A DNA stretch of 41,486 nt from the IMG/VR virus record IMGVR_UViG_3300010392_000222, positions 1-41,486 of that record. One strand, given 5' to 3'. Under the pieces are notes generated by a model. The model made no database searches. It was not told the DNA's origin and was given only the letters and a program-made list of their open reading frames with translations. Shown in pieces: positions 3,209 through 27,988 of the stretch. Position numbers and translations under genes: made by a program. The stretch comes from a virus. The first letter of the stretch is position 1, and every line of letters starts with the position of its first letter.

Positions 3209-3241
3209 ATCTCCATTCGAGCCCCCAAAGCTCGTAGTTCG

Positions 3242-3274
3242 ATGCTGGGTCCTCTAAACGGGATCCAGCATTTT
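3242..3274 (+). terminator. Intrinsic terminator
   Basis: An 11-bp stem (ATGCTGGGTCC / GGATCCAGCAT, one G-T wobble) with an 8-base loop is followed by TTTT. It closes the operon ending at 3208, directly before the next leader. Confidence 0.8.
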
Positions 3275-3339
3275 CCGGCCAGGAACCCCAGCCCCATCGA
3301 GGGGCGATCCTCGCCGTCATTCAGACGAAAGGAAACGCC

Positions 3340-4083: not shown

Positions 4084-4155
4084 AATCGGTAGCAATCCGA
4101 TAATGGCCCCCGAATATTCCTGGTCGGAAGAAACCGAGGGTCTCGGACCAGCAGA

Positions 4156-4189
4156 CGCCGAGCGACTGAACACCGCTCGGCGTTTTTTT
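4156..4189 (+). terminator. Strong intrinsic terminator
   Basis: A perfect 9-bp stem CGCCGAGCG / CGCTCGGCG with a 9-base loop is followed by seven T. It separates the gene ending at 4083 from the unit beginning at 4229. Confidence 0.92.
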
Positions 4190-4194
4190 GCGCC

Positions 4195-4220
4195 TAGAAT
4201 CATCGATCCCCGACCAGGAG
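4195..4220 (+). promoter_or_regulatory. Promoter -10 (TAGAAT) plus CGACCAGGAG leader
   Basis: TAGAAT (4195-4200) stands directly after a terminator and 11 bases before GACCAGGAG (4212-4220), which gives a Shine-Dalgarno eight bases before the ATG at 4229. The same terminator / -10 / GACCAGGAG layout recurs elsewhere in the window. No -35 match is evident. Confidence 0.6.
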
Positions 4221-4228
4221 ACAAGAAA

Positions 4229-6290: not shown

Positions 6291-6353
6291 GTGGACAATC
6301 TCGCTCGAGGCGTGTATGTTCAGATACCCCCGCTAGAGGGCGGCCCAGCACCC

Positions 6354-6362
6354 GACCAGGAG
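6354..6362 (+). promoter_or_regulatory. GACCAGGAG leader that fixes the start at 6372
   Basis: CCGACCAGGAGACC sits nine bases before ATG 6372. The open frame extends 27 codons further up to a GTG at 6291, but that start lacks this leader and the extra residues are low-complexity. A possible -10 (TATGTT) lies about 36 bases further upstream. Confidence 0.7.
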
Positions 6363-6371
6363 ACCCAAACG

Positions 6372-7805
6372 ATGACTACCAAATCCACGAACGAACAGAA
6401 ACCGCTCGCATGGTTGCGAATCGAAGCCGCAGACGAAGCACGATGCGATTCGCTTCTGAGACTCGCGAGCGTTGAGCCCGATTGGAAGCAGGCCAAAAAA
6501 GTGATGAATGACGCGGAGGAGGCATTGCTCGAGGCGCAGACAGCAGCTCGGGAAATGTTCCCGGATTCGGCGTATGACGAAGCCACATGCAAAGCTCTCA
6601 ATCAGCGATGCGATGCGTTCGAGGGCGCCCAGCTCAAATATCGAAAGATCGACTCCCGCCGGCGGGTGTTGCTTGACGAAAGCAAGAAGTTGACCGAGAG
6701 CGAGTTGACGATGATCTCCGAAGCCCGCGAGCCCGGAATCTTCGCCGACGGATCCAAGAACGGTCCGAACGCCTGGAAATATGTCAAGCTCCGCGATCTC
6801 ACCGGCGGCCCGGATCTGACGAAGGATCTCGAAAAGCAGGTCTGGACCGCTGCCGGTCTCGAGACCCAGGGATACCACACCGTAGACGAGTTCCTCAAGG
6901 GTCGCGACCGACTTATCCCCAATCTCATCGACGATGGGGATCTCGGACGCGAAACGGTTGCGGTCGTGGATACAGCCGTCTACCGCTTCCTCGAGAAGCG
7001 GGATTTGCTCGACAAGTGGCCGAAGGGTTTGGATGCCCCTAGCGGTGAACAGATGACGATTTTGCAAGCCAGCAAAGAGCCAGAACCGAAACCGAAATCG
7101 AAGAAAGCAAAGCCAGAGCCGAAACCGAAGAAAGACAATCCGCCGACGAAGAACGACGCGCCAAAACTCAAGCTCGCAGGTAGTGATGACGATTTGATCG
7201 ATCTTCCGCGATTCACAGATTTTTACGATGCAGAAATCCAGGGAGAATCGGAGTTTAGGGACGAGCTCGAGTCCCGCGAAACCACAATCGGGATGACCTG
7301 GGCGGACCTGTTCCACGGAACACCCATGCTTGACAAGCGGCCGACGGATGAGGAGCTCGCGATCTTCAGCTCGAAGATCGCTCCGCGTTTCGGAGAGCTC
7401 TACATCGAGATCCTCAGTTTGTTGCGAGAAGGGCGAGAGCTCCCCGCCAACCCGATCACGGATGCCAGCTTTGGCGTAATGACGGATCTTGTTTGTCACT
7501 ACGCGACGAAGATGGGGGATCAGACCGGCGAGATGGTCGATGAGTGGTCCGCGTGGTTCAGCCGTCAGGTTTGCGGATTGGGCGGCGACGCGGTTCGCAA
7601 GTTGACACAGTGGAGCTCAGACATCGGCGCCATGGTCGCAGCTCACCAGGACATCGAGAGCAACAACGGTATCACGCTCGCGGATCGTTCGGAGAAGCCA
7701 GAAGCTCCGAAATCCAAGAAGAAGGCCCCGAAGTCATCCAAGAAGAAGGCAGCAAAGAAGAAGGCAGCAAAGAAGAAGGGCGGAAAGAAGAAGTCCGCCG
7801 GTTGA
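6372..7805 (+). CDS. Large protein with histone-H1-like Lys/Ala-rich tail
   Basis: A 477-residue protein starting at 6372 because of the standard leader. Residues 1-120 are helical and likely coiled-coil (KVMNDAEEALLEAQTAAREMF). A Lys/Pro linker with two copies of a PEPKPK-type segment lies near 246-275. A second globular helical region spans about 285-440. The last 40 residues are almost only Lys, Ala and Ser/Gly (AAKKKAAKKKGGKKKSAG) and resemble the tails of bacterial histone-H1-like proteins that bind DNA non-specifically. The tail is encoded by a short repetitive aagaag(a)agg tract. I see no catalytic motif. A DNA- or RNA-binding scaffold role is inferred from the tail alone. Confidence 0.8.
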   Translation: MTTKSTNEQKPLAWLRIEAADEARCDSLLRLASVEPDWKQAKKVMNDAEEALLEAQTAAREMFPDSAYDEATCKALNQRCDAFEGAQLKYRKIDSRRRVLLDESKKLTESELTMISEAREPGIFADGSKNGPNAWKYVKLRDLTGGPDLTKDLEKQVWTAAGLETQGYHTVDEFLKGRDRLIPNLIDDGDLGRETVAVVDTAVYRFLEKRDLLDKWPKGLDAPSGEQMTILQASKEPEPKPKSKKAKPEPKPKKDNPPTKNDAPKLKLAGSDDDLIDLPRFTDFYDAEIQGESEFRDELESRETTIGMTWADLFHGTPMLDKRPTDEELAIFSSKIAPRFGELYIEILSLLREGRELPANPITDASFGVMTDLVCHYATKMGDQTGEMVDEWSAWFSRQVCGLGGDAVRKLTQWSSDIGAMVAAHQDIESNNGITLADRSEKPEAPKSKKKAPKSSKKKAAKKKAAKKKGGKKKSAG

Positions 7806-8002: not shown

Positions 8003-8030
8003 ACCCCCGGACGGCCATTCGGGGGTTTTT
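8003..8030 (+). terminator. Intrinsic terminator
   Basis: A perfect 7-bp stem ACCCCCG / CGGGGGT with a 10-base loop is followed by TTTT. It lies 40 bases downstream of the tRNA-like element, whose transcript it would end. Confidence 0.85.
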
Positions 8031-8035
8031 CGTGC

Positions 8036-8061
8036 TATAGTCATGCTCACCCGACCAGGAG
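8036..8061 (+). promoter_or_regulatory. Promoter -10 (TATAGT) plus GACCAGGAG leader
   Basis: TATAGT (8036-8041), or the overlapping CATGCT just after it, precedes CCGACCAGGAGACC. GACCAGGAG is at 8053-8061, seven bases before the ATG at 8068. It stands directly behind a terminator, as at 4195 and 13748. Confidence 0.55.
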
Positions 8062-8067
8062 ACCACT

Positions 8068-8562
8068 ATGGGAATCAAGAAGAAGAAGCTGCGCGAGCGG
8101 GCGCAATCGGACTATGTCCGCTTTATGAAACACGCCGAATCAGCGATCGAGTTGGCGTCGAGCTCGTTACATTCGGAGATCCGGTTACGGGTTCATCTCA
8201 TGCAAGCTCAAAGCAAGATGAACCAGATGCGAGAAGATCACGCCGATGCTATTCGCCAGGCCAAAGACGAGTCCGCGGGGAGATTTCCAATCATCGTCAA
8301 CGCTCGATCGTTCGTGACGCAGCTCGCCCAGCTCCCCCCAATCCCACCGGGAAGCCGCCCACACTTCTCGACATACGCGATTTCCGTCAGCACATCACCG
8401 GAACACACCCACGATGCTCGTCCTGGATTCAGTAGACCAAATGCCGTCGAAATGGTGACGATCCAGTTGGGAGTTTCTCAGGTCGTTGTCCCTGGAATGA
8501 GAGGTCGATCGCAGTTTGGATACAAGATCCCCGCCGGGGTCGTTCTTGTGGGGATGGACTGA
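8068..8562 (+). CDS. Hypothetical protein
   Basis: A 164-residue protein starting after the standard leader. The N-terminal 75 residues are strongly helical and basic (GIKKKKLRERAQ) with a likely coiled-coil. The C-terminal half is rich in Pro and small residues and ends in a beta-type stretch (GYKIPAGVVLVGMD). The stop shares one base with the next start (TGATG, 8560-8564), so translation is probably coupled to the zinc-ribbon gene. No family is recognised. Confidence 0.8.
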   Translation: MGIKKKKLRERAQSDYVRFMKHAESAIELASSSLHSEIRLRVHLMQAQSKMNQMREDHADAIRQAKDESAGRFPIIVNARSFVTQLAQLPPIPPGSRPHFSTYAISVSTSPEHTHDARPGFSRPNAVEMVTIQLGVSQVVVPGMRGRSQFGYKIPAGVVLVGMD

Positions 8563-11788: not shown

Positions 11789-11819
11789 AACCGGCGGGAA
11801 CCAACCCCGCCGGTTTTTT
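11789..11819 (+). terminator. Strong intrinsic terminator
   Basis: A perfect 10-bp stem AACCGGCGGG / CCCGCCGGTT with a 7-base loop is followed by TTTT. It ends the unit of the secreted protein. A GTGTAGTAT sequence resembling a -10 box lies just before it. Confidence 0.92.
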
Positions 11820-11843
11820 CATTCCCGACCAGGAGACCAGACC

Positions 11844-12290
11844 ATGACGACCATAGACCTCGATCAGCTTTCCGCGTACAGCCAGGAGGAGCTCCACGAC
11901 GCCGCCGACAAGATATTTCAGGAGCTCGGGCCGTCGCAAGCGTGGGAGACGCTCACAAAGGCGTCTGAGGCGATCAAGCGGGAAGGTGGCGGGCTCGTCA
12001 TCGCCGCGAGATTCAATCCCGACAATCCGTTCCATATGGACATCATGGGGTATCAACCGGATTTTCGCAACTACGAGGAGTACAGGACCGCGAATGTCTT
12101 GCTGATGGTTCGTGCATGGATGATGATCGAGCAGCTCTTGATTTACGGTTCTGGACAGATTGGTCTCGGACCGCATGGAGCTAGAGAGCTGTTCGTCGCC
12201 ACGATTCGGAAGATGCGCGAGGATGAGGAGGCGTCGAAGTCCGACCCCGACGACGACACGCCGGGCTCATACATGTTCCCCCAAAAATAA
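11844..12290 (+). CDS. Hypothetical protein
   Basis: A 148-residue protein with GACCAGGAG (11827-11835) eight bases upstream of the ATG. The first 50 residues are helical and acidic; the middle has ARFNPDNPFHMDIMGYQPDF and then a long hydrophobic helix (ANVLLMVRAWMMIEQLLIYG) that looks buried or amphipathic rather than a clear membrane anchor. The C-terminus is acidic and disordered. It stands alone between two terminators, like the 3340 gene. I see no recognisable domain. Confidence 0.8.
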   Translation: MTTIDLDQLSAYSQEELHDAADKIFQELGPSQAWETLTKASEAIKREGGGLVIAARFNPDNPFHMDIMGYQPDFRNYEEYRTANVLLMVRAWMMIEQLLIYGSGQIGLGPHGARELFVATIRKMREDEEASKSDPDDDTPGSYMFPQK

Positions 12291-12645: not shown

Positions 12646-13308
12646 ATGCCGAGCAAGTCCACCAAAAAGCCAAAGACGACGAAAAAGAGCACCAAGAAGC
12701 CCCAGAAACAGGGTAAGAAGTCGTCGATCCAGGAACCCCCGAAGATCGCGAATCAGGGGTCGGAGCTCTTGCCAGAGCAGTATGCTCAAATGTGGGTTCT
12801 CCGCGAGGAAGGGCTCTCGCTGCGTGAAATCGGCCGTCAGGTGGGTTGTCACGCCAAGACAGTACAAAGGGAGTTCAGCAAAGATCCCGCGCGTCATGCG
12901 TCGCTTGTCCGCGCCCAGGCGGAGGAACGCGCCGCCGTGTGGAGGCAGATCGAGAATCATTCTCTCCGCGTGCTCCGCGATGTCATCGAGGACGCCGGCG
13001 AGATCCTGCGGACGCCGGCGGGTCGCAAGCGAACCAAGTTTTCCGAAGGTCAGACCCAGAAAGCGGACATGATCCGCAAGCTCATCGGACCGCTTCGAAT
13101 GGCTGCGGATTCAGCGACGAATAAGTCTCAGCTCCTCGCAGGGAAGCCCACGGAGATCGTTGGCGGAGGTGGTGGTTTAGGACTGGATCCAACCCAGATG
13201 AACGAGGACGATGTGTTGCAGCTCGCGATAGAGCACGATTTGATTCACTTGTTACCCGCAGCTCTCAGGGAGAAGGTGGAGAAAAAGCAAGGCGACAAAG
13301 ACCCATAA
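12646..13308 (+). CDS. terS: Probable small terminase subunit (DNA recognition)
   Basis: A 220-residue protein. A basic, disordered N-terminus of about 35 residues (Lys/Thr/Ser repeats) is followed by a helix-turn-helix: YAQMWVLREEGLSLREIGRQVG and CHAKTVQREFSKDP (about 45-82), the pattern of small terminases and resolvase-type HTH domains. A long helical region (about 85-150, RAAVWRQIENHSLRVLRDVI) would form the oligomerisation part, and a Gly-rich linker leads to an acidic C-terminal helix region that could contact the large subunit. The small terminase binds the packaging site and hands the DNA to the ATPase/nuclease. Position upstream of terminase and portal supports the call. The start is the ATG at 12646; its ribosome site (TAGGG) is weak. 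A different HTH regulator cannot be excluded. Confidence 0.7.
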   Translation: MPSKSTKKPKTTKKSTKKPQKQGKKSSIQEPPKIANQGSELLPEQYAQMWVLREEGLSLREIGRQVGCHAKTVQREFSKDPARHASLVRAQAEERAAVWRQIENHSLRVLRDVIEDAGEILRTPAGRKRTKFSEGQTQKADMIRKLIGPLRMAADSATNKSQLLAGKPTEIVGGGGGLGLDPTQMNEDDVLQLAIEHDLIHLLPAALREKVEKKQGDKDP

Positions 13309-13417
13309 CCCTTTATTTCACCCAGTTTCTATCTTTGGTGTTGGTCTGTGGCATGAGTGCATATTACATTCAGGTCATCGGCCGACCGGATTGCAGGTCG
13401 CTATACGGGAGAGAGTT

Positions 13418-13648
13418 ATGAGCAAACAGCACTACACCGCGATCGTGATGGGTGTCTCACCTCGAGATAGCAGCCGACATTACGAGATCGGAAGATTCAA
13501 GCAACCAAACCTATCCGATCTCTACGATCAGGTTGATTCATATTGGAAAGCTCTCGGGTGGGTGGGTCGATCGTTTGTGCGTTACATTGATCCAGACGGG
13601 AAGCAGCTCACGCATGGGCAGCTCATCGCAGCATTGGGATCTAGATAA
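13418..13648 (+). CDS. Small hypothetical protein
   Basis: A 76-residue protein, start ATG 13418 after GGGAGAGAG; a TTG nine codons upstream is possible but has no ribosome site. Sequence is alpha/beta with many Tyr and Arg (HYTAIVMGVSPRDSSRHYEIGRF, GRSFVRYIDPDGKQLTHGQL). No family is recognised. It ends before a terminator at 13706. Confidence 0.7.
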   Translation: MSKQHYTAIVMGVSPRDSSRHYEIGRFKQPNLSDLYDQVDSYWKALGWVGRSFVRYIDPDGKQLTHGQLIAALGSR

Positions 13649-13705
13649 CAGAATATCTCCACCGTTGGGACTAGAACGCATGAAACCAACTCAGCGGGAG
13701 AGGTC

Positions 13706-13741
13706 AAGAACGCTCGGGCATTCCGGGCGTTCTTTGTTTTT
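13706..13741 (+). terminator. Strong intrinsic terminator
   Basis: A 12-bp stem AAGAACGCTCGG / CCGGGCGTTCTT with one T-G wobble and a 5-base loop is followed by TTTG and a run of T. It separates the 13418 gene from the next promoter. Confidence 0.9.
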
Positions 13742-13747
13742 GGTGGG

Positions 13748-13774
13748 TATGATCCAATCAACCCCGACCAGGAG
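13748..13774 (+). promoter_or_regulatory. Promoter -10 (GGTATGAT-like) plus GACCAGGAG leader
   Basis: GGGTATGATCC holds a near-consensus -10 (13748-13753). CCCCGACCAGGAGAACCC follows (core 13766-13774), and the ATG is at 13781. It lies directly behind a terminator and is the clearest example of the repeated module. Confidence 0.65.
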
Positions 13775-13780
13775 AACCCA

Positions 13781-14134
13781 ATGCAAGAGCGACCGTCCCC
13801 GATCTATGATTTTGCGATTTCTATCATCGATGAGAAGCCCCGTACATGCTCGGAAATCACCCGGAACGCCAGCAAACACTTCAAGCGGAATATCACCGAT
13901 GGATCGATTAGTCGAGCTCTCAGGAAAGCTCAGGAGCGGGGCATCTCGAGGCGGCTTGATGATCTGAAATGGGTCAGTGTCGAGGAGTGGGAAGCCGCGC
14001 AGCGACGCAAGGCGGACCCGCAGACGATCAAGGCGACGAAGATCCCATCGACAACCAAGACGAGCTCGACAGGTCTCATACCAGCGTTGAGCAGGCCCTC
14101 GAGGTCGAACAGCGAGAGTACCGATCGAGTATGA
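13781..14134 (+). CDS. Putative winged-helix DNA-binding protein
   Basis: A 117-residue protein. Residues 5-70 look like a winged helix: a helix (IYDFAISIIDE), a turn PRTCSEITRNASKHF, a recognition-type helix TDGSISRALRKAQERG and a strand pair. It may act as a transcriptional regulator, though no partner is visible. From about residue 85 on, the sequence becomes Ser/Thr/Arg-rich and less protein-like. Over the same bases the frame of the next gene reads as a plausible charged helix (SVEQALEVEQREYRSS). The true C-terminus may therefore be elsewhere: a frameshift or sequencing error joining this gene to the next is possible. Confidence 0.65.
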   Translation: MQERPSPIYDFAISIIDEKPRTCSEITRNASKHFKRNITDGSISRALRKAQERGISRRLDDLKWVSVEEWEAAQRRKADPQTIKATKIPSTTKTSSTGLIPALSRPSRSNSESTDRV

Positions 14135-14454
14135 TCCGACGCATGGCAAGATACAACCGCAAACCACTCGGGATCGATGGGTGGCCCATTCCGAATGATG
14201 GACAGCTCCGAGTGTTCGGGCGCGAAGCTCTTGGGATGACCAATCAACAGATCAATGAGGACATCCAGGACGCACACGACACGGATATTTATCCTCGCGT
14301 GGAGCTTCATGGGTCCGAAACTCTGATTGTCGAGATCGGAACCGTTGTAATCCGCGACGATGAGGGGTTCTGGGGATCTATCTCCGAGGAGCGTCTCGCG
14401 GAGGAGTATGACGAGGACAACGGGCAGAAGTCCGCGACAGCAACCCCGCTTTAG
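14131..14454 (+). CDS. Hypothetical acidic protein (start uncertain)
   Basis: At least 107 residues from the ATG at 14131, which overlaps the previous stop as ATGA. The same frame is open back to an ATG at 13969, and the upstream part from about 14040 already looks coding. The downstream part has QINEDIQDAHDTDIYPRVELHG, then two beta strands (TLIVEIGTVVIRDDEGFW) and an acidic tail. No domain is recognised. Either the start at 14131 is right, or the gene begins further upstream, or it is fused to the 13781 gene by frameshift. Confidence 0.6.
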   Translation: MIRRMARYNRKPLGIDGWPIPNDGQLRVFGREALGMTNQQINEDIQDAHDTDIYPRVELHGSETLIVEIGTVVIRDDEGFWGSISEERLAEEYDEDNGQKSATATPL

Positions 14455-14465
14455 GAGATCAGGTC

Positions 14466-14708
14466 ATGGGCATTGACGCCATTACTCAGGTATGGGTATC
14501 GATATTTGGTCTTTCCGCGCTCTGGCTGATGATGTCCAAGAACGAGAAGCGGAGAAAGATCGGGATCATCCTGGGGCTCATCGGGCAGCCGGCTTGGTAT
14601 GCCCAGCTCACGATCAACGATCAGTGGGGTATGCTTCCAGTGTTCATCGGATATACGGCAAGCTGGATCTACGGATTCTGGACACACTGGATCAGGGAAT
14701 CACCATGA
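14466..14708 (+). CDS. Three-helix membrane protein, holin candidate
   Basis: An 80-residue protein with TAGGAGATCAGGTC upstream of the ATG. Three membrane helices are visible at about 7-24, 32-50 and 56-75, with a basic loop (KNEKRRK) after the first. The words QPAWY and DQWG match a small phage membrane family (Q-P-x-W ... x-Q-W-G) that I have seen in many genomes without a proven role; its fold may be related to PnuC-like transporters. Three helices and small size also suit a class I holin. Its stop overlaps the start of the next gene (ATGA), which may be a hydrolase. I hold the holin call at low confidence. Confidence 0.7.
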   Translation: MGIDAITQVWVSIFGLSALWLMMSKNEKRRKIGIILGLIGQPAWYAQLTINDQWGMLPVFIGYTASWIYGFWTHWIRESP

Positions 14709-15631
14709 GCATCGATATGACAGCATCGGAATCGAAGTATGGGGACAATCGCAGGTGGGACGATGACACGGAGATCGGGTCTCGGCGTCTCAGGTTGAAA
14801 TCCACCGAACGGCATCGGACGATCCTCGTTTCGAATCCCGGATCGCCGGAGTTTCAAGATCGATTTGCGGACATTATTCGCGAGGAGGGGCTCGAGGATC
14901 ATGTCGAATACTCGGTCCAGGTGGGCGCGAGACTCAACGGACGAGAGAGCTATCCAGACCGGATCGATGTCGATAAGTATGACATTCAGCGGGTTTATGA
15001 CTTGTCGATGGAGAACCAGTCGCGGAATCTCAAGAAGCCGATCGGGTTCTTCTATGACTATGAACCCGAATACAGGGACATATTCGGCATCAAACGGAGC
15101 TGGTCGGGGCGGACCAGGTACACGGCCGACGATCTCAGCTTCTTCTCGCGGGTGTTCGATGTTCTCAGGGAATCGGGGATCCCTTGCTCAAACTTCGCCG
15201 TCCCCCGCGTTCCGATCGGTAAGCGGATGAACCTGTTTCGAATCCGGGACCTGCAAACAGCGACCCCGATCGTTCAGCTCTCGGATCATGTCCAGCTCAG
15301 GATCTACCCGAGGACCCGGACGGATGCGGAGATCACGCCAGGCGCGGAGATCAATCACCGGAAAGCGGTTCGGCAGCATGTCGAGGTATATCAAAAGGCG
15401 TTCCCGTTGCACCCGATTGTCCCGATCATGTTCGCCCGTCACGCCTTTGTGGATAACTATCGATTCTTCTCGATCTACTTGGACGAGCTGGACAAGGTGC
15501 CGGAGATCGACACGATCCAGTATTGGACCAACACCCACAATCAAACGATCTTTGATTTCTGTTCAGCTCAGTTCCGCATTGTCGCACCATTGCTACGAGC
15601 TTGGGTCCATAGAGAGCTGATCCCGGCGTGA
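14705..15631 (+). CDS. Putative TIM-barrel hydrolase, endolysin candidate
   Basis: A 308-residue protein. The ATG at 14705 overlaps the stop of the membrane protein and has GGATCAGGGA upstream. The first 50 residues are polar. From there on the order of strands and helices suggests a TIM barrel: HRTILVSNPG, PIGFFYDYEPEY (an acidic D-x-E on a strand end, as in glycoside hydrolases), CSNFAVPRVP, HVQLRIYPRTR, HPIVPIMFARH and IDTIQYWTN. Placement right after a holin-like gene makes a cell-wall lysin attractive, and no other lysin is recognised in the window. I cannot name a glycosidase family and the catalytic residues are a guess. It could also be a virion or capsule-degrading enzyme. Confidence 0.6.
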   Translation: MSIDMTASESKYGDNRRWDDDTEIGSRRLRLKSTERHRTILVSNPGSPEFQDRFADIIREEGLEDHVEYSVQVGARLNGRESYPDRIDVDKYDIQRVYDLSMENQSRNLKKPIGFFYDYEPEYRDIFGIKRSWSGRTRYTADDLSFFSRVFDVLRESGIPCSNFAVPRVPIGKRMNLFRIRDLQTATPIVQLSDHVQLRIYPRTRTDAEITPGAEINHRKAVRQHVEVYQKAFPLHPIVPIMFARHAFVDNYRFFSIYLDELDKVPEIDTIQYWTNTHNQTIFDFCSAQFRIVAPLLRAWVHRELIPA

Positions 15632-15638
15632 GGTTCTC

Positions 15639-16577
15639 ATGTCCGCAGCTCTCGATCTAGATTTCAAACAGAAGCTCATTGCGCAGGCGATTATTCAGCA
15701 ATACGCCGCATCCAGACCGTGCGATGACTACGAGCCCCACGATCAGGGTCAAATACAGTTCCACGAATCGGGACACACCATCCGGGGCTTGTTTCCGGGT
15801 AACGGCTTTGGAAAGACAACCGCCGTCGCTGCGGAGTGTCATAACTGGTGTATGCACACAAACAGGTGGCAGGAGACCCCAGATCATCCGGTCCAGGTCG
15901 TTTGGTTCTGTCAGGATTACCAGCAGTTCGGGAAGCTCCGCGACCAGATCGAACGCGATGTCATCGGATCGTGTGCGAAGTGGAGAGAGACCACCGACGG
16001 CAAGTTCTACGAATACCCCGACGGTTCACGATGGTTTGTGAGCTCGGCGGACCGATCTTGGACATTCTTCCAGGGGACGAACCCGGATTTGATCGCGTTC
16101 GACGAGCAACCACCGCTCAAACTGTGGCGCGAGGCGATGATGCGGCGTCGTGGCAAGCGAAAGACGAAATATATCGTGAGTGCGACAGCTACTCAGGGGC
16201 TCTCATGGATGGCTGATGTCATATGGGGACCGTGGAAGGAGCACTATGAGAACCTCGGAATATCACATGATGCAGCTCTCATCGACCAGCCCCACCGGGA
16301 TATATGGGTGTGGGACGAGGGGGGGATCGAGGACAACCCAGGCGCGGACGAGGAGGATGTCCGTTGGTACAAATCGCAGACCTGGAGCTCGGAGAAAGAG
16401 AAGAAAGTGCGTTTGCGGGGCGGATTCGAGGACTGGACCGGAGACAGCGTCTTTGATGCGGTATCGATCGAACGGATGCGGGACGGATTGGCGGAATGGC
16501 TCAGTCGCAATCCTCAGATGCCAATAACGGGTATACTTGAACCAATCTTCCCCCCGACCAGGAGACCCAAGCGATGA
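15639..16577 (+). CDS. terL: Terminase large subunit, ATPase half (split gene)
   Basis: A 312-residue protein with the packaging-motor ATPase motifs in order: Walker A PGNGFGKTT (53-61, K59), a second region VQVVWFCQD, Walker B LIAFDEQP with D155 and E156, and the coupling motif SATAT (181-185). After TGDSVFDAVSIERMRDGLAEWL, where an intact TerL would go on to its nuclease, the frame instead runs through a -10 box and a ribosome-binding leader and stops at 16577, sharing ATGA with the next gene. The last 14 or so residues (ILEPIFPPTRRPKR) are thus encoded by regulatory DNA. The matching nuclease is at 18026-18853, 1.45 kb downstream. The ATPase alone could drive translocation; cutting needs the other half. 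Product identity is secure. Confidence 0.88.
   Translation: MSAALDLDFKQKLIAQAIIQQYAASRPCDDYEPHDQGQIQFHESGHTIRGLFPGNGFGKTTAVAAECHNWCMHTNRWQETPDHPVQVVWFCQDYQQFGKLRDQIERDVIGSCAKWRETTDGKFYEYPDGSRWFVSSADRSWTFFQGTNPDLIAFDEQPPLKLWREAMMRRRGKRKTKYIVSATATQGLSWMADVIWGPWKEHYENLGISHDAALIDQPHRDIWVWDEGGIEDNPGADEEDVRWYKSQTWSSEKEKKVRLRGGFEDWTGDSVFDAVSIERMRDGLAEWLSRNPQMPITGILEPIFPPTRRPKR
16532..16564 (+). promoter_or_regulatory. Promoter -10 (TATACT) and GACCAGGAG leader inside the 3' end of the ATPase gene
   Basis: GGGTATACT (16532-16537) and CCCCGACCAGGAGACCC (core 16556-16564) precede the ATG at 16574. They repeat the module seen behind terminators elsewhere, but here they lie inside an open frame. This marks the left edge of the DNA inserted between the terminase halves. 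Confidence 0.6.
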
Positions 16578-17695
16578 CCACCGAACCGACCAGCATGCGC
16601 CCGCGCGGCGAGAGTGGTTCATTGGACCCGCTCACATACAAGGGGATTCCGTTGATCGTCGAGGATCTCATGGGAGTCGAGGTCGTCAGGGTCGATCCAG
16701 CTTTGAAAGACATGGAGGACATGGTCGCGGCGATGAAGTTCGAACCGCTGGACGCGGATGCTCTTTCCAGTCTCACGATCACAAATCGATTCGGAACCAG
16801 AACGATCCAGCAGTTTCTCGATGCACTACCGGAGGATTGCATTAGCAACTCGAGACGAAACGAGCTCATCGAGGAGCTTCGCGCCGATCTTATGAGCATG
16901 ACCACCACACCAGGAGACCAAGAAATGAGCCCAGAAACCGTCAGGTGTCCCGTATGCACCGCCAACTACAACCCGATCACCAACTCGGATCAATGCCCAC
17001 ACCGCCAGCATTCCCACACCCTCATCGATCCGACGGAAAAATCCCCGGATCTCGGACCCGCTCCGACGAGATCGACAGTGATGGAGCTGATCCCAAAAGC
17101 GAAGATGGAACATATCCGGCCGTCTCCGGTTGCAGAAGCCAACGCCGAGAAACCGGAGATCCCCTCGCCTGGTCGGATCGTCTACATCATGCAAAAAACA
17201 GAATCGGATGATTTGAATCTATTTATCGCGCCTGCGATGGTTGTAGCGTCAAAGGGGTACACGAATCTGGAGCCGGTCCAGCATGGAACAACGGTTCTTC
17301 TCAGACGCATGGACGAACCAATCGAGGGCGAGGGGTGTCTAGACCCATTGAGCTTGTTTCAGCATATTTCGGAGATCGAATATGCCGGCGGAGTCGGATG
17401 GGACTGGATGCCATACCAGAAGGGGCAAGCGAAGAAGCTGGAGGAGGTCCAGTCGATCGAGTGGATGGGTCTCAGGACGAGCCCGAGCGTCGAGGACCTT
17501 GAAAGACGATTCACATATCACCCACCAACCACCGAGGAGAAGATCCAGGCATACCAATCGATCCGATCGAGGGCGGAGGATCTAGCGAGTCTGTTGGTTC
17601 TTTATTGTCCACCGTCTCCCGAGCTCGCATCCGCGCTAGATCACCTCGACACGGTAGTATTCAAAGCAAACGCATCCATCGCTCGGCATGGGTGA
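16574..17695 (+). CDS. Multi-domain protein with C-terminal Acb2/Tad1-type hairpin domain (putative anti-CBASS/anti-Thoeris)
   Basis: A 373-residue protein between the terminase halves. Residues 1-117 are a region of unknown type. Residues 124-144 hold a zinc-ribbon-like C125-x2-C128 ... C141-P-H143. Residues 199-283 run from PGRIVYIM to GWDWMP, the outline of a small beta-barrel phage domain that usually begins PGRIV and ends WHWP. Residues 311-373 (RRFTYHPPTTEEKIQAYQSI, then CPPSPELASALDHLDTVVFKANASIAR) match by recall the helical hairpin family of Acb2 and Tad1. Those proteins bind the cyclic nucleotides or gcADPR made by CBASS and Thoeris and so blunt host defence. Inside the frame at 16909-16916 is an exact leader (ACCAGGAG) nine bases before M118 at 16925, so a shorter 256-residue product is likely made too. 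The domain call is from pattern memory only. Confidence 0.7.
   Translation: MTTEPTSMRPRGESGSLDPLTYKGIPLIVEDLMGVEVVRVDPALKDMEDMVAAMKFEPLDADALSSLTITNRFGTRTIQQFLDALPEDCISNSRRNELIEELRADLMSMTTTPGDQEMSPETVRCPVCTANYNPITNSDQCPHRQHSHTLIDPTEKSPDLGPAPTRSTVMELIPKAKMEHIRPSPVAEANAEKPEIPSPGRIVYIMQKTESDDLNLFIAPAMVVASKGYTNLEPVQHGTTVLLRRMDEPIEGEGCLDPLSLFQHISEIEYAGGVGWDWMPYQKGQAKKLEEVQSIEWMGLRTSPSVEDLERRFTYHPPTTEEKIQAYQSIRSRAEDLASLLVLYCPPSPELASALDHLDTVVFKANASIARHG
16909..16916 (+). promoter_or_regulatory. Internal ribosome-binding leader for a start at 16925
   Basis: CACCAGGAGACCAAGAAATG carries the same sequence used before many gene starts here, inside an open frame (read as TPGDQEM). It would begin translation at residue 118 of the 373-residue ORF. 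Two genes appear to have been joined in frame with the spacer kept, or two products share a C-terminus. Confidence 0.65.
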
Positions 17696-17716
17696 CATCA
17701 AAGAAGGGAGCCGATT

Positions 17717-17944
17717 ATGGCTGAAAACACCGAGAAGCGGACCCACGGACTACTTGAAAACGCGAAGAATGCCCACGCGAGAGGGGCGTCGTCTTTCCAC
17801 GCTCGCAAGCCGAGCGACAAGGTCATACGCCAGTTGCAGGACAAGGGGTTGATCGTTGACCCCATCGAGGGAAGCCCGGATCGTGTGCTCGTTTCGTTCG
17901 AGCCCACGATTGAGTTGTTCAAGGTTGTCCAGGACACGCCATAG
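17717..17944 (+). CDS. Small hypothetical protein in the terminase cassette
   Basis: A 75-residue protein, start ATG 17717 with AAGAAGGGAGCCG upstream. It has a basic, helical N-terminus (ENTEKRTHGLLENAKNAHAR) and a strand-rich C-terminus (DRVLVSFEPTIELFKVV). It lies 21 bases after the Acb2/Tad1-like gene and directly before a terminator, so the two form one operon. No family is recognised; a partner or second anti-defence protein is possible by position only. Confidence 0.75.
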   Translation: MAENTEKRTHGLLENAKNAHARGASSFHARKPSDKVIRQLQDKGLIVDPIEGSPDRVLVSFEPTIELFKVVQDTP

Positions 17945-17970
17945 AACCAGCTCTTGATTTTGGCATCTCC

Positions 17971-18009
17971 AAGCGGTCGCGATCTCTTTGCAGTTCGCGA
18001 CCGCTTTTA
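17971..18009 (+). terminator. Strong intrinsic terminator closing the terminase cassette
   Basis: A perfect 12-bp stem AAGCGGTCGCGA / TCGCGACCGCTT with a 12-base loop is followed by TTATTT. It lies between the 75-residue gene and the terminase nuclease half, so the nuclease needs its own promoter or read-through. Confidence 0.92.
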
Positions 18010-18013
18010 TTTG

Positions 18014-18019
18014 GTAAGA
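18014..18019 (+). promoter_or_regulatory. Possible -10 box (TAAGAT) giving a nearly leaderless nuclease mRNA
   Basis: TTTGGTAAGATCCGACATG places a GG-TAAGAT box only six bases before the ATG at 18026. Compared with the standard module (GGTATGATCC...CGACCAGGAGACC-ATG) the CAGGAGACC part is absent, so the transcript would start at or near the ATG and lack a Shine-Dalgarno. Confidence 0.35.
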
Positions 18020-18025
18020 TCCGAC

Positions 18026-18853
18026 ATGCCCCCGATTCTCGATCTCAGAGCTGACGAGCTGTTGCAAGCGATCGGATTCGAGTTCCTCGAAGAATCTCAC
18101 CCAGGCGTGCGGATCTCGATCTACGAGGAGCCCAATCCAGCCCGCCAATACTGTTTGGGGGCGGACTTCGCTCTAGGCATTCAGGGGCGGGACAAGGATA
18201 CAATGTGTGTTCTCGACAACACCGACGCCAGGAAAGTGCAAGTTGCGGAGGTCGAGGGGACGCTCGGGGAGGTCTCGGACAAGCTGCTATGGGGCATGGC
18301 GATGTTCTACGGGGGGGCTTTCGTGCTCGGGGAACGACAGTTCGGACTCCCATCACTGCGAAGATTGCTCAAAGATTTTGGCTATGGATTCCAGTTCTAC
18401 GAGCGTGACGAGACCAAGAAAAACAGGCCGGTGACGGACAAGCTCGGGTATTACAAGCGGGGAAACTGGACCACGGATCCAGCATTGCGAGCTCTCAGGC
18501 GTGCGATCATCCAAGACGACATCGAGGTCCGGTCCGGGGAGTGCATAAGCCAGCTCTCCCGTCTCCAGTTCAAGACCAGAACGAGCATTGAGCCCGAGGA
18601 TTCGCTCGATGAGGACATGGTCGTCAAGCTCGCGGGCGGAGGGTCTCCCGATCTTGTCATGTCGTTGGCGTATGCTCTCCATGCGTGCAGGGAAGTCGAT
18701 CACTTCCCACAACAGCAAATCGAGTACCCGTCGGGATCAGCCGGCGACATATTGGGACACGACGAAGTGTTCGACGATGAGACGCGGAGCCCGTATAGAC
18801 CCGGAACGCCGGCGGCGAAGCGAGCTCGATCACTCGGACGCATTGGAGGTTGA
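18026..18853 (+). CDS. terL: Terminase large subunit, nuclease half (split gene)
   Basis: A 275-residue protein from ATG 18026; the open frame extends left to 17954 but only through the terminator hairpin. It has the RNase-H-fold nuclease of large terminases: a strand IYEEPNPARQYCLGADFALG with D47, VVxE-type motif VLGERQFG with E103, a GNWTT segment, and GGGSPDLVMSLAYALH with D209. These three acids bind the metals that cut concatemeric DNA. The residues before D47 (HPGVRISIYEEP) are what normally follows the ATPase domain, so this continues the gene at 15639. No Walker motif is present. The Arg-rich C-terminus is typical. The two halves must assemble as separate chains if packaging follows the usual route. 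Confidence 0.85.
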   Translation: MPPILDLRADELLQAIGFEFLEESHPGVRISIYEEPNPARQYCLGADFALGIQGRDKDTMCVLDNTDARKVQVAEVEGTLGEVSDKLLWGMAMFYGGAFVLGERQFGLPSLRRLLKDFGYGFQFYERDETKKNRPVTDKLGYYKRGNWTTDPALRALRRAIIQDDIEVRSGECISQLSRLQFKTRTSIEPEDSLDEDMVVKLAGGGSPDLVMSLAYALHACREVDHFPQQQIEYPSGSAGDILGHDEVFDDETRSPYRPGTPAAKRARSLGRIGG

Positions 18854-19067: not shown

Positions 19068-19090
19068 TTCACTGACCCGACCAGGTTGGA
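19063..19090 (+). promoter_or_regulatory. Promoter -10 (GGTATGAT) and altered leader before the portal gene
   Basis: CGGTATGATTC (-10 at 19063-19068) is followed by CCCGACCAGGTTGGAGC, a variant of the common leader in which the GGAG is shifted by a few bases. The ATG is at 19098. Confidence 0.55.
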
Positions 19091-19097
19091 GCTTCAA

Positions 19098-20966
19098 ATG
19101 CTGAATGTCGAACCGAATAACCTGCGGATGGAAGTCGAAAATGCGATCCATATCCGAAAGCTGCACACGGTCATATTTGATGATCTAGTCGCAAACTACG
19201 CAGGAAAGTATTTCCGCGAGGATTGGGACCCAGGACGACCGACCATCGATAAACATGAGTTCGAGTTTCTGGTGAATATCGTTCCGTCCGTCATGGCGAG
19301 CAATCCAGCGGTTTCCGTGAAGTCTCGCCGGCCGAGGGTTCAACGCGAAGTCGTGAAAGCGATGAAGCATGGATTGAATCGCTGGATCAAAGACACGAAG
19401 TTCAAACAAACGGTAGAGCCGTCGGTCATCGATGCGGTATTCAAGTTCGGCGCGATGCTCATCACGATGGAGCCAATGCCAGGGTATGAGAGCAAGGAAA
19501 CCCCCCCTCTCAGACCAGCTCTTACGCGAATCAGTCCCAAGCGATTTTTCATGGATCCGACAGCAGAACGACCGGAGCTTGCGAGATTCATGGGGCATAT
19601 ATCGATTCGGGACCGCGACGATCTAATCAACGCCAAAGACTTCGAGGGGAAGCCCAAGTATGACAAGGCAGCGATCGAAGCTCTCGGAGGCCCGGATGAT
19701 GAGATCGCATCCTCGACCCTCGCGGAGTACATCCACGATCTAGGGGTGACGGTTGACCGGGACCAGGTCATCACGGCCGAGATATTCGTCCCAGAGACCC
19801 AGATGATTTATTCGATCGGGTTCTCATCCACCAACGACGAAAAGAAGAAGGTGGGCAAGTATCTACGCAAGCCGCGCCGATACTTCGGACACCCTCGAGG
19901 ACCCTACATCCTGTTCGGATTCCACATCGTCCCGGATCAGGTCTATCCGCTCTCCCCCCTTTGCGTGACGGCGGAGATCGTTGAGGAGCTCAACGCACAC
20001 TCCGACCAGCTCCGCAGGCAGGCGGACACCCAAAGAAATCTCGTCCTGGTCGATGGAACCAATGCCCCGCTCGTCGATGCGATCAAAAATTTTGCGGATG
20101 GGACAGTCGCGTCTCTCCCAAACTTCGATCGGAATGCGTTTGCGGAGGTCTCGCTCGGCGGATCATCGGCGACCCAGCTCGATTATGTTGCGGGTTTGCG
20201 TGAACAGGTGGACAGACAATCGGGTCTCACCGACATTCAACGCGGCGTCGTCACCGGGGACGCAACTGCAACAGAGTCGAAGCTGGCAGCCGCGGCGTCG
20301 TCGGGTCGGGTCCAGTCGATGAAGGACAAGATTCGGGATTCGGTGATTCAGATCCTCGAGAATGTCGCCTATCTCATGTTCGAATCCAAAAACATCGTAT
20401 TCCCGATCAGTCAAGAGAAGTCGGAGAAGATGGTGTTCAACGGGATCGGGGCGGAATCTCCGTTTTCGATGGAGGGCGAGGATGAGGAGGATCTCTTGTT
20501 CTTCGGCGGCAAGCAGGAGGGTCAAGAGGACTTTAGTTTCTGGGATCTCGAGCTCGAGATTGAGCCGTACAGCATGGAGCAAGTCAATGAAGCGGTCTTG
20601 CAGAAGCGGATGGAAACCGCGTTCATGCTCGTCACCAAAGCCGCTCCGATGATGATGCAATACCCGTTTATCAACTGGCCCGAGTTGTTCGACGACTACT
20701 TCCAGCAGCTCAATATCAGCGACGGCCGCAAGTATGTCAATTTTGAGATGCTCATGCAGATGCTCGGGATCAAGTACGGACCCGGAGCTCTCAGCGACAT
20801 TCCTGGGATCGATGGATCTCCCCCTGTTGATCTCGCGTCGTTCTTCTCGAAAGGCGGCGGCGCTGGCGTAGATGCGGGACTCCCGACGGCGGGCGTTCCC
20901 CAGGGGCAAGCTACCGGAGAGGGTGCGGGTGAGCTCGCAGGTCTCTTAGGATCAGCGGTCGCGTGA
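19098..20966 (+). CDS. Portal (head-to-tail connector) protein
   Basis: A 622-residue protein just downstream of terminase, as expected for the portal. It forms the twelve-subunit ring at the capsid vertex through which DNA is pumped. Seen in it are an N-terminal helical region with NYAGKYFREDW and PSVMASNP, the segment ISPKRFFMDPTAE typical of podovirus and myovirus portals, a stem-like region, and the ATATESKLAAAASSGRVQSMKD block (TATE-type motif) followed by a long helix. The C-terminal 60 residues are Gly/Ala-rich and probably disordered. The start is the ATG at 19098; a TTG four codons earlier is less likely. High confidence from order and motifs. Confidence 0.85.
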   Translation: MLNVEPNNLRMEVENAIHIRKLHTVIFDDLVANYAGKYFREDWDPGRPTIDKHEFEFLVNIVPSVMASNPAVSVKSRRPRVQREVVKAMKHGLNRWIKDTKFKQTVEPSVIDAVFKFGAMLITMEPMPGYESKETPPLRPALTRISPKRFFMDPTAERPELARFMGHISIRDRDDLINAKDFEGKPKYDKAAIEALGGPDDEIASSTLAEYIHDLGVTVDRDQVITAEIFVPETQMIYSIGFSSTNDEKKKVGKYLRKPRRYFGHPRGPYILFGFHIVPDQVYPLSPLCVTAEIVEELNAHSDQLRRQADTQRNLVLVDGTNAPLVDAIKNFADGTVASLPNFDRNAFAEVSLGGSSATQLDYVAGLREQVDRQSGLTDIQRGVVTGDATATESKLAAAASSGRVQSMKDKIRDSVIQILENVAYLMFESKNIVFPISQEKSEKMVFNGIGAESPFSMEGEDEEDLLFFGGKQEGQEDFSFWDLELEIEPYSMEQVNEAVLQKRMETAFMLVTKAAPMMMQYPFINWPELFDDYFQQLNISDGRKYVNFEMLMQMLGIKYGPGALSDIPGIDGSPPVDLASFFSKGGGAGVDAGLPTAGVPQGQATGEGAGELAGLLGSAVA

Positions 20967-21658: not shown

Positions 21659-22584
21659 TGGAAGGCCAGAAACTAATGAAGCACAGCAAGCACCTAATCA
21701 ACTGTCCCGTACATGTTACAACGATGGAGTGGGCGCGACCCGACATCCCGCGAGCTGGGATCATCACTGGATACGGAGCAAAAGAAGGGCTTTTCAATGT
21801 CGCGGTATTCTCCGATCACTCGCTCGACATCCGCATCGGCAAGTCTCCGATTCTCTATGTGAACAATGTCCTGGTCGTGGATGACGACGACGATACCCCC
21901 GTCGGCGTGCATCAGTACGCGAGGATCTATCAGCAACCAATGTCCACGCAGATTCTTCGCCATATCGACCAGCTCTACAAATCCATCGGAGCGCCGGCCG
22001 AACCCGAGCAACCCGAGGAGCTCGAGAAGGTCGAGGATGATTCAAACGACAAGGTCGAGGATGATTCAAACGACAAGGTCGAAGATGATTCAAACGACAA
22101 GGTCGAAGATGATTCAAACGAGAAGGTCGAAGATGATTCAAACGAGAAGGTCAAGGACCCGGAGGGCGACGGCAAGCATCCACCGCTTCCGGCGGGGACT
22201 CCGATCCAGAAGCTCCAAAAGAGCCCCGCATTCGAGCCGATCGCAGCAATCGAGGGGATCTTCTCCACCGAGACGGGAGATAATGAGCTCTCGATCACCA
22301 TCGATGACGATGAGAAGCCGATCGCGAGAATCACCTGGAAAGATCCGCCGGCGGGCCGTGCGCTTGTGACGGAGCCGTTTGGGTTCACGATCAAGTTTCG
22401 AGACAGCGGCGGACGATGCTCGAGGACGATGGGGCTCAATGTCCCTCGACCAGAGAAGCTCAAACCGATCCTCGAGTGTGTCGCAGGCGCGATCAAATCA
22501 GCGATGGAAGCGGATCTAGGAGACTTCGGAAGCTCCACGGAGAACATGACCGAGTGGGTCAACAAAGCCGTAGCGTTCTCATAA
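21658..22584 (+). CDS. Hypothetical protein with five 8-residue acidic repeats
   Basis: A 308-residue protein overlapping the previous stop by one base. Residues 1-120 form an alpha/beta region with a DDDDD turn; residues 124-163 are five tandem copies of KVEDDSN(D/E); residues 180-300 form a second domain, beta-rich (ELSITIDDDEKPIARITW, GFTIKFRDSGG) with a helical end. The repeat is a hinge-like acidic linker. I do not recognise either domain. Position between portal and scaffold suggests a virion or assembly role, but many phages place unrelated small genes here. Confidence 0.75.
   Translation: MEGQKLMKHSKHLINCPVHVTTMEWARPDIPRAGIITGYGAKEGLFNVAVFSDHSLDIRIGKSPILYVNNVLVVDDDDDTPVGVHQYARIYQQPMSTQILRHIDQLYKSIGAPAEPEQPEELEKVEDDSNDKVEDDSNDKVEDDSNDKVEDDSNEKVEDDSNEKVKDPEGDGKHPPLPAGTPIQKLQKSPAFEPIAAIEGIFSTETGDNELSITIDDDEKPIARITWKDPPAGRALVTEPFGFTIKFRDSGGRCSRTMGLNVPRPEKLKPILECVAGAIKSAMEADLGDFGSSTENMTEWVNKAVAFS
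22027..22146 (+). repeat. 24-bp tandem repeat, five copies
   Basis: Units start at 22027, 22051, 22075, 22099 and 22123 and encode KVEDDSND/E. The copies differ at only two positions (GAG/GAA and GAC/GAG), which shows recent expansion by slippage or recombination. Copy number may vary among relatives. Confidence 0.95.
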
Positions 22585-25493: not shown

Positions 25494-26219
25494 ATGCGGA
25501 CAACTCAGGATTATCTCGACATGATGGGTCACTCGCTGGGCAAGACGCCGGATTCGAGGCACAAGCTCATCGACACGCTCAACGACGCGGGGCGGGCGCT
25601 TGTCAATGCCCATGAATGGACATGGAAAACAAGGTCTGGGAAGGTGCTCGAGCTGGTTGCGGGTCAAGACTATGTCGATCTCCCGGCGGACTTCGGGGCG
25701 GTTCTCAGCGTGACGAGCGTTGGGGGATCCCCGATCTCTATTCACTTGACGAGCATCGAGGACATAGCGATGCGGAGAGCGTGGGACAACTACGACTCCC
25801 TGAACCTGTTTATCGCGTTCGAATCTGGATCCGAGGGGTTGACGGATGAAGATGGGGTCGTCGAGAACCAAGCGCCGGTCTGGCCTACTCCAGCGTCCGC
25901 TCGATCCGATCTCCGGCTCGCATACCGGAGCAAGTGGGTTGACCTCGAATCCGAGGACCCGGACCGCGTGCCGGTCATCCCCCGCGACTGGGAGCGTTCC
26001 TTGATGCTGTTCGCAAACGCCTTTGCGTGGGACATCGAGAACAAGACGGATCCATACGAGAATCAAGCTCTGTTTGGACCGACTGGAGAGATTCAGCGAC
26101 TCATTATCCTCGATGCGGGGAAGCAGCAGAATCATGGGCGACCATCCCATAGCGTTATGGCGAGAAGCAGGACGGCGCAGGCCCGAAGGCCCTTTAGCCG
26201 TATAAATCCACCCACTTGA
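25494..26219 (+). CDS. Tail adaptor / tail tubular protein A-like (head-tail connector)
   Basis: A 241-residue protein with ATGGAGGTAG before the ATG. The pattern LIDTLNDAGRALVNAHEWTWKTRSG (short helix, then Trp-rich turn) and DYVDLPADFGAVLSV is characteristic of the T7 gp11-like adaptors that sit under the portal and join it to the nozzle. RLAYRSKW, PVIPRDWERSLMLFANAFAW and a long C-terminal helix follow; the basic end (RTAQARRPFSR) is disordered. The place upstream of the nozzle-like gene fits. This is one of the main grounds for calling the phage a podovirus. Confidence 0.75.
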   Translation: MRTTQDYLDMMGHSLGKTPDSRHKLIDTLNDAGRALVNAHEWTWKTRSGKVLELVAGQDYVDLPADFGAVLSVTSVGGSPISIHLTSIEDIAMRRAWDNYDSLNLFIAFESGSEGLTDEDGVVENQAPVWPTPASARSDLRLAYRSKWVDLESEDPDRVPVIPRDWERSLMLFANAFAWDIENKTDPYENQALFGPTGEIQRLIILDAGKQQNHGRPSHSVMARSRTAQARRPFSRINPPT

Positions 26220-26236
26220 CACCAAAGGAGATACAG

Positions 26237-26842
26237 ATGCCACACTCACTAGAAACAAAGCGACTCATCGACGGGGCGCTAAACACACCATCCCGAACCT
26301 CATGCAATGACCTGGTTCTGAATCGTTCTGGGACCGACCAGTTTGTCAGCAATGCCGAGATGAACATGATCCATACTCGGGTCGTGCTCGGTGCTGATCT
26401 CACGCTCGTCTCGTCGGTCGATAATGCGGCGAAGGGCGGGGGCGCAAAGCTGTTCGACTTCCCAGCGGGATACATTACGATCTTCAACGCTCGAATCGAG
26501 GGAACGCTCTCGACATCGGTTTCGGATCTCACATCCACAGCCGGCGAGATTGGGCTCGGAACCGTCGTCGGTACTGGTGCCGTCGCGGTGCTCGGCGGGA
26601 CATCGACATTCGAGGACATCCTCGAGGGCGCCCGACCAGCTCTCGGGAACATGACGGCGGGGAACGATCTCGCTGTCAAAGCTGGCGGAACCCTGAGAAC
26701 CGCGAGCGTCGGGACATTCTCGGCGGCGGCGTCGTGCTTCTTGAACCTCGCTTCAACCTGGGGCAATGTCGCATCGGCGGCGGATGTCGTCATCAAGAGC
26801 GGAGCTGTCATCGATATTTACTGGTCGATCGCGGAGGCGTAA
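26237..26842 (+). CDS. Beta-rich virion protein, paralogue A
   Basis: A 201-residue protein starting at ATG 26237 after GGAGATAC. Most of it is built of short Val/Thr/Ala/Gly-rich strands with no charged core, like tail or head-fibre shells. The segment GEIGLGTVVGTGAVAVLGG and following STFEDILEG recur almost unchanged in the gene at 27398. The rest of the two proteins is only loosely alike, but both share KLFDFPAG / KLLDFPAG and end with an acidic-aromatic strand. They are a duplicated pair around an unrelated gene. Function unknown; a structural part of tail or capsid is likely from position. Confidence 0.75.
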   Translation: MPHSLETKRLIDGALNTPSRTSCNDLVLNRSGTDQFVSNAEMNMIHTRVVLGADLTLVSSVDNAAKGGGAKLFDFPAGYITIFNARIEGTLSTSVSDLTSTAGEIGLGTVVGTGAVAVLGGTSTFEDILEGARPALGNMTAGNDLAVKAGGTLRTASVGTFSAAASCFLNLASTWGNVASAADVVIKSGAVIDIYWSIAEA

Positions 26843-27397: not shown

Positions 27398-27988
27398 ATG
27401 ACAACATCAACGAACCCAGTAGATCAACGAATCGTCGATTCGGATCGGATCGGCCTGGTCAACGAAGTAGCCGAGGGGCTTGGAGCGACTGTTGAGCATG
27501 TCGCCAAAGGTGGAGTTATCCACACCAAGATCGTTCTCACATCCGACACGATCGTTATCAGCGGAGCCGCAGCCGCGGCGTCGAAGGGTGGCGGTACGAA
27601 GCTGCTCGACTTCCCCGCGGGGAAAGTTGTACCCGTCGCGTCTCGGATCGCGGGTCGATTGACGCTTTCGGATACAGCAATGACGACGACAGCCGGCGAG
27701 ATCGGTCTCGGAACCGTTGTCGGTACTGGTGCCGTCGCGGTGCTCGGAGGGACATCGACATTCGAGAACATCCTCGAGGGTGGGTCTCCGGCGCTCGGGA
27801 ACATCACGGCGGGATCGGTCCTCACATTCGCGACATATGACGACGCAAGAACACTTGTTCCGGCGTCTGGGGTGTCTGGAGCTCTGTATCTCAACGCTGC
27901 TACCGCGTTTGCGACTGGAACAACAACCAATCTCATCGCCAAAGCAGGGACCGAGATCGAACTTTGGTGGATTCACCTGGACGCATAA
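27398..27988 (+). CDS. Beta-rich virion protein, paralogue B
   Basis: A 196-residue protein with TAGGAGCACTGAACA before the ATG. It shares with paralogue A the block GEIGLGTVVGTGAVAVLGG plus the following STFE(N)ILEG, conserved at the DNA level (92 bases, five mismatches by eye, 26537-26628 against 27689-27780). N-termini differ. The last residues are strand-like (GTEIELWWIHLDA). The gene duplication suggests a hetero-oligomer or two related rings or fibres in the virion. Confidence 0.75.
   Translation: MTTSTNPVDQRIVDSDRIGLVNEVAEGLGATVEHVAKGGVIHTKIVLTSDTIVISGAAAAASKGGGTKLLDFPAGKVVPVASRIAGRLTLSDTAMTTTAGEIGLGTVVGTGAVAVLGGTSTFENILEGGSPALGNITAGSVLTFATYDDARTLVPASGVSGALYLNAATAFATGTTTNLIAKAGTEIELWWIHLDA

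Follow-up and report, generated by a model that had tools for sequence, protein, structure and literature searches.

Essential phage enzymes can be encoded in pieces. Free-standing homing endonucleases have split nrdA of phage Aeh1 without abolishing the function of its product (PMC2988022). In Aeh1 nrdA (mobE), T4 topoisomerase gene 60 (mobA) and the phage 25 DNA polymerase genes 43A/43B, an inserted mobile endonuclease or intercistronic sequence leaves an essential enzyme in two genes, whose chains are known or presumed to cooperate (PMC2988022). Among large terminases (TerLs), DNA-packaging enzymes that normally combine a motor half and a cutting half in one protein, the Parabacteroides phage phiPDS1 carries the two TerL domains on two coding sequences, a single case that was treated as a possible assembly or genetic-code problem (PMC10773633). 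The terL fragments of the Jug phages (PMC12363816) and of ICP1 (PMC10448857) lie apart with homing endonucleases nearby, and their transcripts are spliced into one frame. The TerL of cyanophage Mic1 also contains insertions, in the form of two inteins in one gene that undergo protein splicing (PMC7156551). Here we describe a stretch of viral DNA (IMG/VR record IMGVR_UViG_3300010392_000222, positions 1–41,486; hereafter the window) in which the ATPase and nuclease halves of TerL are encoded by separate genes with 1.45 kb of other sequence between them. Coordinates without a contig name are those of the window, and the terminase and portal genes and the elements of the gap lie on its plus strand.

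The locus resembles the genes in pieces in having a single break point relative to intact relatives, with both parts complete. It differs from the Aeh1, T4 and phage 25 examples in that the divided enzyme is the large terminase, that several divergent phages share the division, and that the gap cargo is in most cases not an endonuclease and varies by member. Unlike the Jug phage and ICP1 terminases, the window lacks a recognised intron family and its two halves have separate start and stop codons; unlike the Mic1 protein, neither half contains an intein domain in Pfam searches. The phiPDS1 report was the only comparable split TerL in the open-licence papers searched, and others may exist. What appears to be new here is a small, phylogenetically supported split-TerL lineage of uncultured phages with a variable gap, which would make genes in pieces a lineage trait of a large terminase.

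The ATPase half (15639–16577, 312 residues) contains the Walker A (PGNGFGKT), Walker B (LIAFDE) and SATAT coupling motifs, in columns conserved with intact TerLs. It matches Pfam Terminase_6N (E 8e-4, under the curated cut-off), is 51% identical to its counterpart in the contig L002, and corresponds to the N-terminal domain of intact TerLs. The nuclease half (18026–18853, 275 residues) is RNase H-like, matches the PHROG terL family (phrog_2, E 6e-5) and is homologous to proteins in L002 and a second contig, G002, and to the C-terminal parts of intact TerLs. An AlphaFold model of this half (mean predicted local distance difference test score, pLDDT, 74.5; over 85 in most of the core) matches T4 gp17 (Foldseek E 8e-10), the nuclease domain of RB49 gp17 (E 1.5e-8) and the G20c terminase nuclease. 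Its three acidic residues, D47, E103 and D209, are invariant across 13 homologues. Both halves thus carry the motifs that an initial annotation, made from the sequence alone, had assigned to them. At the DNA level the two domains lie on separate open reading frames (ORFs) rather than in one polypeptide, which makes this a homologous split form and not an ordinary TerL. Searching the window with a TerL profile revealed no second TerL.

The boundaries of the two genes resemble those of ordinary genes. The stop codon of the ATPase gene and the start codon of the following ORF overlap (ATGA), and the nuclease start is best assigned to the ATG at 18026, which aligns with the L002 start and lies 3' of a terminator-like hairpin. 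A start at TTG 17954 was ruled out, since translation from it would traverse the hairpin and the L002 start aligns with 18026. Both cargo ORFs of the gap share their reading frame with the nuclease (16574–18853), and one TAG followed by the terminator separates the 75-residue ORF from the nuclease frame.

Alignment to intact TerLs, the check that the initial annotation had proposed, places the break in the linker between the two domains. Counted from where the ATPase core ends to where the nuclease core begins, the window has 39+41 residues, L002 has 37+42 and G002 has 33+45, against 49–73 in intact relatives. By this count no residues are lost at the break, and the halves instead bear extra terminal residues.

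ATPase-based searches yielded twelve IMG/VR loci. Six distinct lineages encode both TerL domains in one ORF (L006; L007–L009, seemingly one lineage; L010; L011; L012; L013), and four contigs are split within the same inter-domain linker: the window, L002, G002 and L040. In L002 the ATPase gene (1188–2162) is followed by genes for 196- and 98-residue proteins and then by the nuclease gene (3038–3886). In G002, when read across the contig ends, the nuclease lies about 3.5 kb from the ATPase, with seven same-strand ORFs between them that include a HARE-HTH-like protein and an NrdR-type zinc ribbon. In L040 the ATPase gene is followed by another gene and a terminator-like hairpin. Next come a truncated copy of the nuclease start, a frame-disrupted NUMOD4/HNH_3 homing endonuclease gene and a second occurrence of the nuclease start. 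The two diverged nuclease-start copies on either side of the endonuclease gene (7729–7787, MFARFYLSPLSWPQGRFTV; 8263–8320, VNARFYLSRVPWEQGRLSV) look as if the insertion had brought along a duplicate of the start of the downstream gene.

Phylogenetic analyses group the split members. The window, L002, L040 and G002 form one clade in the ATPase tree (support 98/96), and the window, L002 and G002 group together in the nuclease tree (87/87). The same three group in an independent tree (100/100) built on the portal protein (19086–20966), a marker with weak head-tail/portal PHROG matches and homologues in the same position in all relatives. Identities within the split group are low, at 43–51% for the ATPase and 36–40% for the nuclease. 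The split form has therefore endured much sequence change with its catalytic residues retained.

The cargo in the gap is unrelated between split members. Because L002, G002 and L040 share the linker split with the window, carry unrelated cargo and belong to one ATPase clade, the split is, on this phylogenetic evidence, ancestral and older than the present cargo, and the gap is best read as a refilled site rather than as the scar of the present cassette. This does not support the model of the initial annotation, in which an anti-defence cassette recently inserted into the intact terL of this phage alone. That model draws support from the self-contained nature of the cassette, whose leader and terminator are styled like those of other units of the genome. 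Against it stands the same break with other cargo in three further contigs. The overall and third-position GC contents (GC and GC3) of the cassette also match its surroundings, as expected without recent foreign import, though the cassette may have originated within the same genome. We therefore consider a recent insertion very unlikely.

The window is a metagenomic contig, and the phiPDS1 authors voiced a similar worry over their split TerL (PMC10773633). A chimeric contig, or an inactivated terL complemented by a helper or a second terminase, could thus in principle produce the pattern. This seems quite improbable to us, as independent contigs from different samples share the split, the catalytic residues are retained over a large divergence (51% and 40% identity), no second TerL was found, and the first and last 127 bases of the window are identical. 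From this exact terminal repeat, the 41,486-base record is probably a complete phage genome.

Since spliced terL genes are known from the group I introns of the Jug phages (PMC12363816) and from the ICP1 terminase (PMC10448857), splicing is the main rival explanation. In this scenario the two halves would be exons and the gap a self-splicing intron of a kind unknown to Rfam, which carries the cargo and allows one ordinary TerL to be made. Searches for group I and II introns, which by the initial annotation would have refuted its reading if their splicing joined the halves, found none at the Rfam gathering threshold in the window or its relatives and none at E<=5 in 16350–18250. A strong terminator also sits in the gap, the gene starts and stops described above look like those of ordinary genes, and the members have unrelated gap contents. 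A joined product would moreover have a linker of 78–80 residues, which exceeds that of every intact relative examined. On balance we regard splicing as unlikely.

With a probability of about 0.72, we favour an explanation in which a mobile insertion split an ancestral terL at the linker, the products form a two-protein TerL at the portal, and the gap cargo has been replaced over time. We infer the following order of events, and with it two-chain assembly and the function of the cargo. A homing-endonuclease-type mobile element, most plausibly of the HNH type found in L040, would have broken the ancestral gene at the ATPase–nuclease linker, harming neither domain. The duplicated nuclease start that flanks the L040 endonuclease offers a model of how the downstream half could acquire its own start. 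Both halves would have retained or acquired translation signals that stabilised the two-gene state, and the two proteins would assemble at the portal as a two-chain packaging motor. The gap would have stayed a tolerated insertion site in which cargo was swapped. The window's current cargo would then be an anti-defence-type unit, composed of a hairpin protein and a 75-residue ORF and closed by a terminator, with a separate start for the nuclease gene beyond it. What we observe directly are complete homologous halves, a common break point, membership in one clade, differing cargo, and an HNH endonuclease gene in one sister.

Several points weigh against this explanation. An endonuclease is present in the gap of only one of the four split members, L040; Pfam and PHROG searches find none in the window's gap, so the initial annotation was right that no endonuclease is visible there, yet that statement does not extend to this sister. 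The L040 split can be read for the ATPase and the nuclease start only, because the contig ends inside the nuclease gene. The G002 contig ends do not overlap and meet at a run of G residues, so the adjacency of its ATPase and nuclease genes is likely rather than proven. A cargo-first order is possible for the very first event. A difficulty comes from T4, where severing gp17 at the linker preserved both activities and yet eliminated DNA translocation (PMC3012670; also PMC9958956), so two-chain function is not a given. In light of this result, the lineage may have evolved an interface that takes over from the hinge, or some route invisible in the DNA may join the halves. Over its first 22 residues the nuclease is similar between the window and L002 (shuffle p 0.0025), but the corresponding similarity to G002 is not significant in the shuffle test. 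A shared docking element at the nuclease N-terminus is consequently only a suggestion. The G002 N-terminus was rejected as proof of a shared docking helix, for want of significant similarity and because the nuclease N-terminal region is modelled at low confidence.

We further consider, as a tentative and less probable extension, an obligate two-chain motor. The nuclease would here be a subunit with a transcript of its own, docking on the ATPase ring or on the portal, translocation would proceed without a covalent hinge, nuclease supply could be regulated apart from the motor, and the gap would be a standing site for accessory genes. Phage and herpesvirus packaging models couple the ATPase to the nuclease/translocation domain via one flexible hinge. 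A lineage that lives with the hinge cut would challenge the tethering requirement seen in T4 and constitute a natural experiment on the role of the hinge. A split TerL also makes it possible to mix, mutate and recombine its two small proteins independently. Finally, pipelines that call TerL as a single full-length gene will overlook or truncate phages of this kind.

The cargo of the window presents a junction within an essential gene that appears to have been refilled with differing genes, among them one of the Acb2/Tad1 type. The first cargo gene (16574–17695, 373 residues) encodes an uncharacterised N-terminus, a CPVC zinc-ribbon-like stretch, a phage domain with a WDWMPYQKGQ motif and a C-terminal Acb2/Tad1 hairpin. 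The hairpin (residues 314–371, 17513–17686) exceeds the curated cut-off of PF24729 (E 1.8e-12), matches phrog_1454 (E 2.8e-20) and is modelled as a helical hairpin (block pLDDT about 83–92). It provides a point of likeness to the Acb2/Tad1 sponge proteins (PMC12043709). In the window it forms the last 60 or so residues of a multidomain protein, which differs from those sponges, and any sponge activity is putative. The domain with the WDWMPYQKGQ motif occurs as small stand-alone proteins in IMG/VR phages. Outside its C-terminus the 373-residue protein is modelled at low confidence with no significant PDB match, and structure search was discarded as a means of identifying it, the model being too poor for its matches to have meaning.

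By virtue of its hairpin domain, the cargo may function in anti-defence, in keeping with the initial annotation. PADLOC returned no match for the cargo genes. The second cargo gene (17717–17944, 75 residues) matched no family in Pfam and PHROG comparisons, and no relative of its product was found. A conceivable alternative is that the split itself is a form of counter-defence, with two chains that evade host TerL sensors such as Avs3 and the Acb2/Tad1 gene as a companion. The anti-defence-type cargo of the window and the Avs3 structure solved with a phage terminase (PDB 8dgc) lend this idea circumstantial support; the other split members contain no recognised anti-defence cargo, and we find it highly improbable. 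Small Acb2/Tad1-hairpin-like genes also lie near the intact terL of distant relatives (L004 4149–4448, Arthrobacter phage Jasmine gp9; L006 1347–1748).

The borders of the gap follow a style that recurs in this genome. A TATACT box (16532–16537) and a leader (CCCGACCAGGAGACCC / CCCGACCAGGAGACCCAAGCGATGA) fall inside the 3' end of the ATPase ORF. The leader, a predicted ribosome site (CCCGACCAGGAGACCCAA, 16553–16570), belongs to a genome-wide repeat (family D8; 87% identity over 38 nucleotides with 6351–6388). It has 30 genome matches at up to two mismatches against 12.8 expected, and none of 100 shuffles reached 30. At the other border, an intrinsic-terminator-like hairpin (17971–18006) combines a perfect 12-bp stem, a 12-nucleotide loop and a T-rich tail. 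It is one of five plus-strand hairpin-plus-T sites in the genome, and ten simulated sequences each contained none. As the leader repeats genome-wide and the terminator exceeds the simulated null, the layout described in the initial annotation is real, down to the nuclease gene 1.45 kb downstream behind a perfect terminator, and a self-contained leader-to-terminator unit in the usual style of this genome is supported.

Two details of that annotation require revision. The proposed -10 box, like similar boxes ahead of the leader at 4214, 8055 and 13768, amounts to consensus resemblance, and a promoter scan of the sequence gave no excess over shuffles. The first of the two intervening genes also contains a second leader copy, detected through the leader repeat matches, with an in-frame ATG at 16925 (16909–16927), so this ORF may yield two products, the shorter one, of 256 residues, from ATG 16925.

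Several leader copies are preceded by a hairpin terminator and then by a TAnnnT box (4155/4214, 11789/11829 and 13706/13768). More generally, a border in the order terminator hairpin, TAnnnT box, leader (CCCGACCAGGAGACC) and ATG recurs at 4155–4231, 8010–8070, 11789–11846, 13706–13782 and 16532–16576, with some sites missing some of the parts. It looks like a phage-wide cassette format of the non-structural region.

The wider packaging module runs from a probable small terminase (TerS) through several small genes, the ATPase half, the two cargo ORFs, the terminator, the nuclease half and a short ORF to the portal gene. The probable TerS (12646–13308) has helix-turn-helix matches and is related (phmmer E 9e-22) to a gene that immediately precedes the ATPase in G002. 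In the window more cargo genes separate TerS from the ATPase (13391–15631), including one for a 303-residue protein without a recognised family (14720–15631); in G002 the TerS gene adjoins the ATPase gene.

A portal-based search for further members returned only L002 and G002, two pattern scans of limited reach found no prophage relatives in bacterial genomes, and among annotated phages there was neither a match to the nuclease half nor a relative at the DNA level. In the contig L015 (5869–7564) the ATPase stop and the nuclease ATG overlap by about 20 nucleotides in different frames. The overlap may reflect a split with directly adjoining halves, programmed frameshifting or an error in sequencing; L015 was not counted as an additional independent split because one frameshift would fuse the halves and it sits on a long branch in the tree.

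Elsewhere in the window, a gap cargo gene of L002 is related to late-region genes at 27398–27988 (E 1e-13) and 26216–26842 (E 6e-10), which share a 146-nucleotide stretch that is 84% identical. Lastly, a 24-bp tandem repeat in six copies (21999–22181), within a 308-residue ORF 3' of the portal gene, encodes acidic repeats of the VEDDSNDK type.

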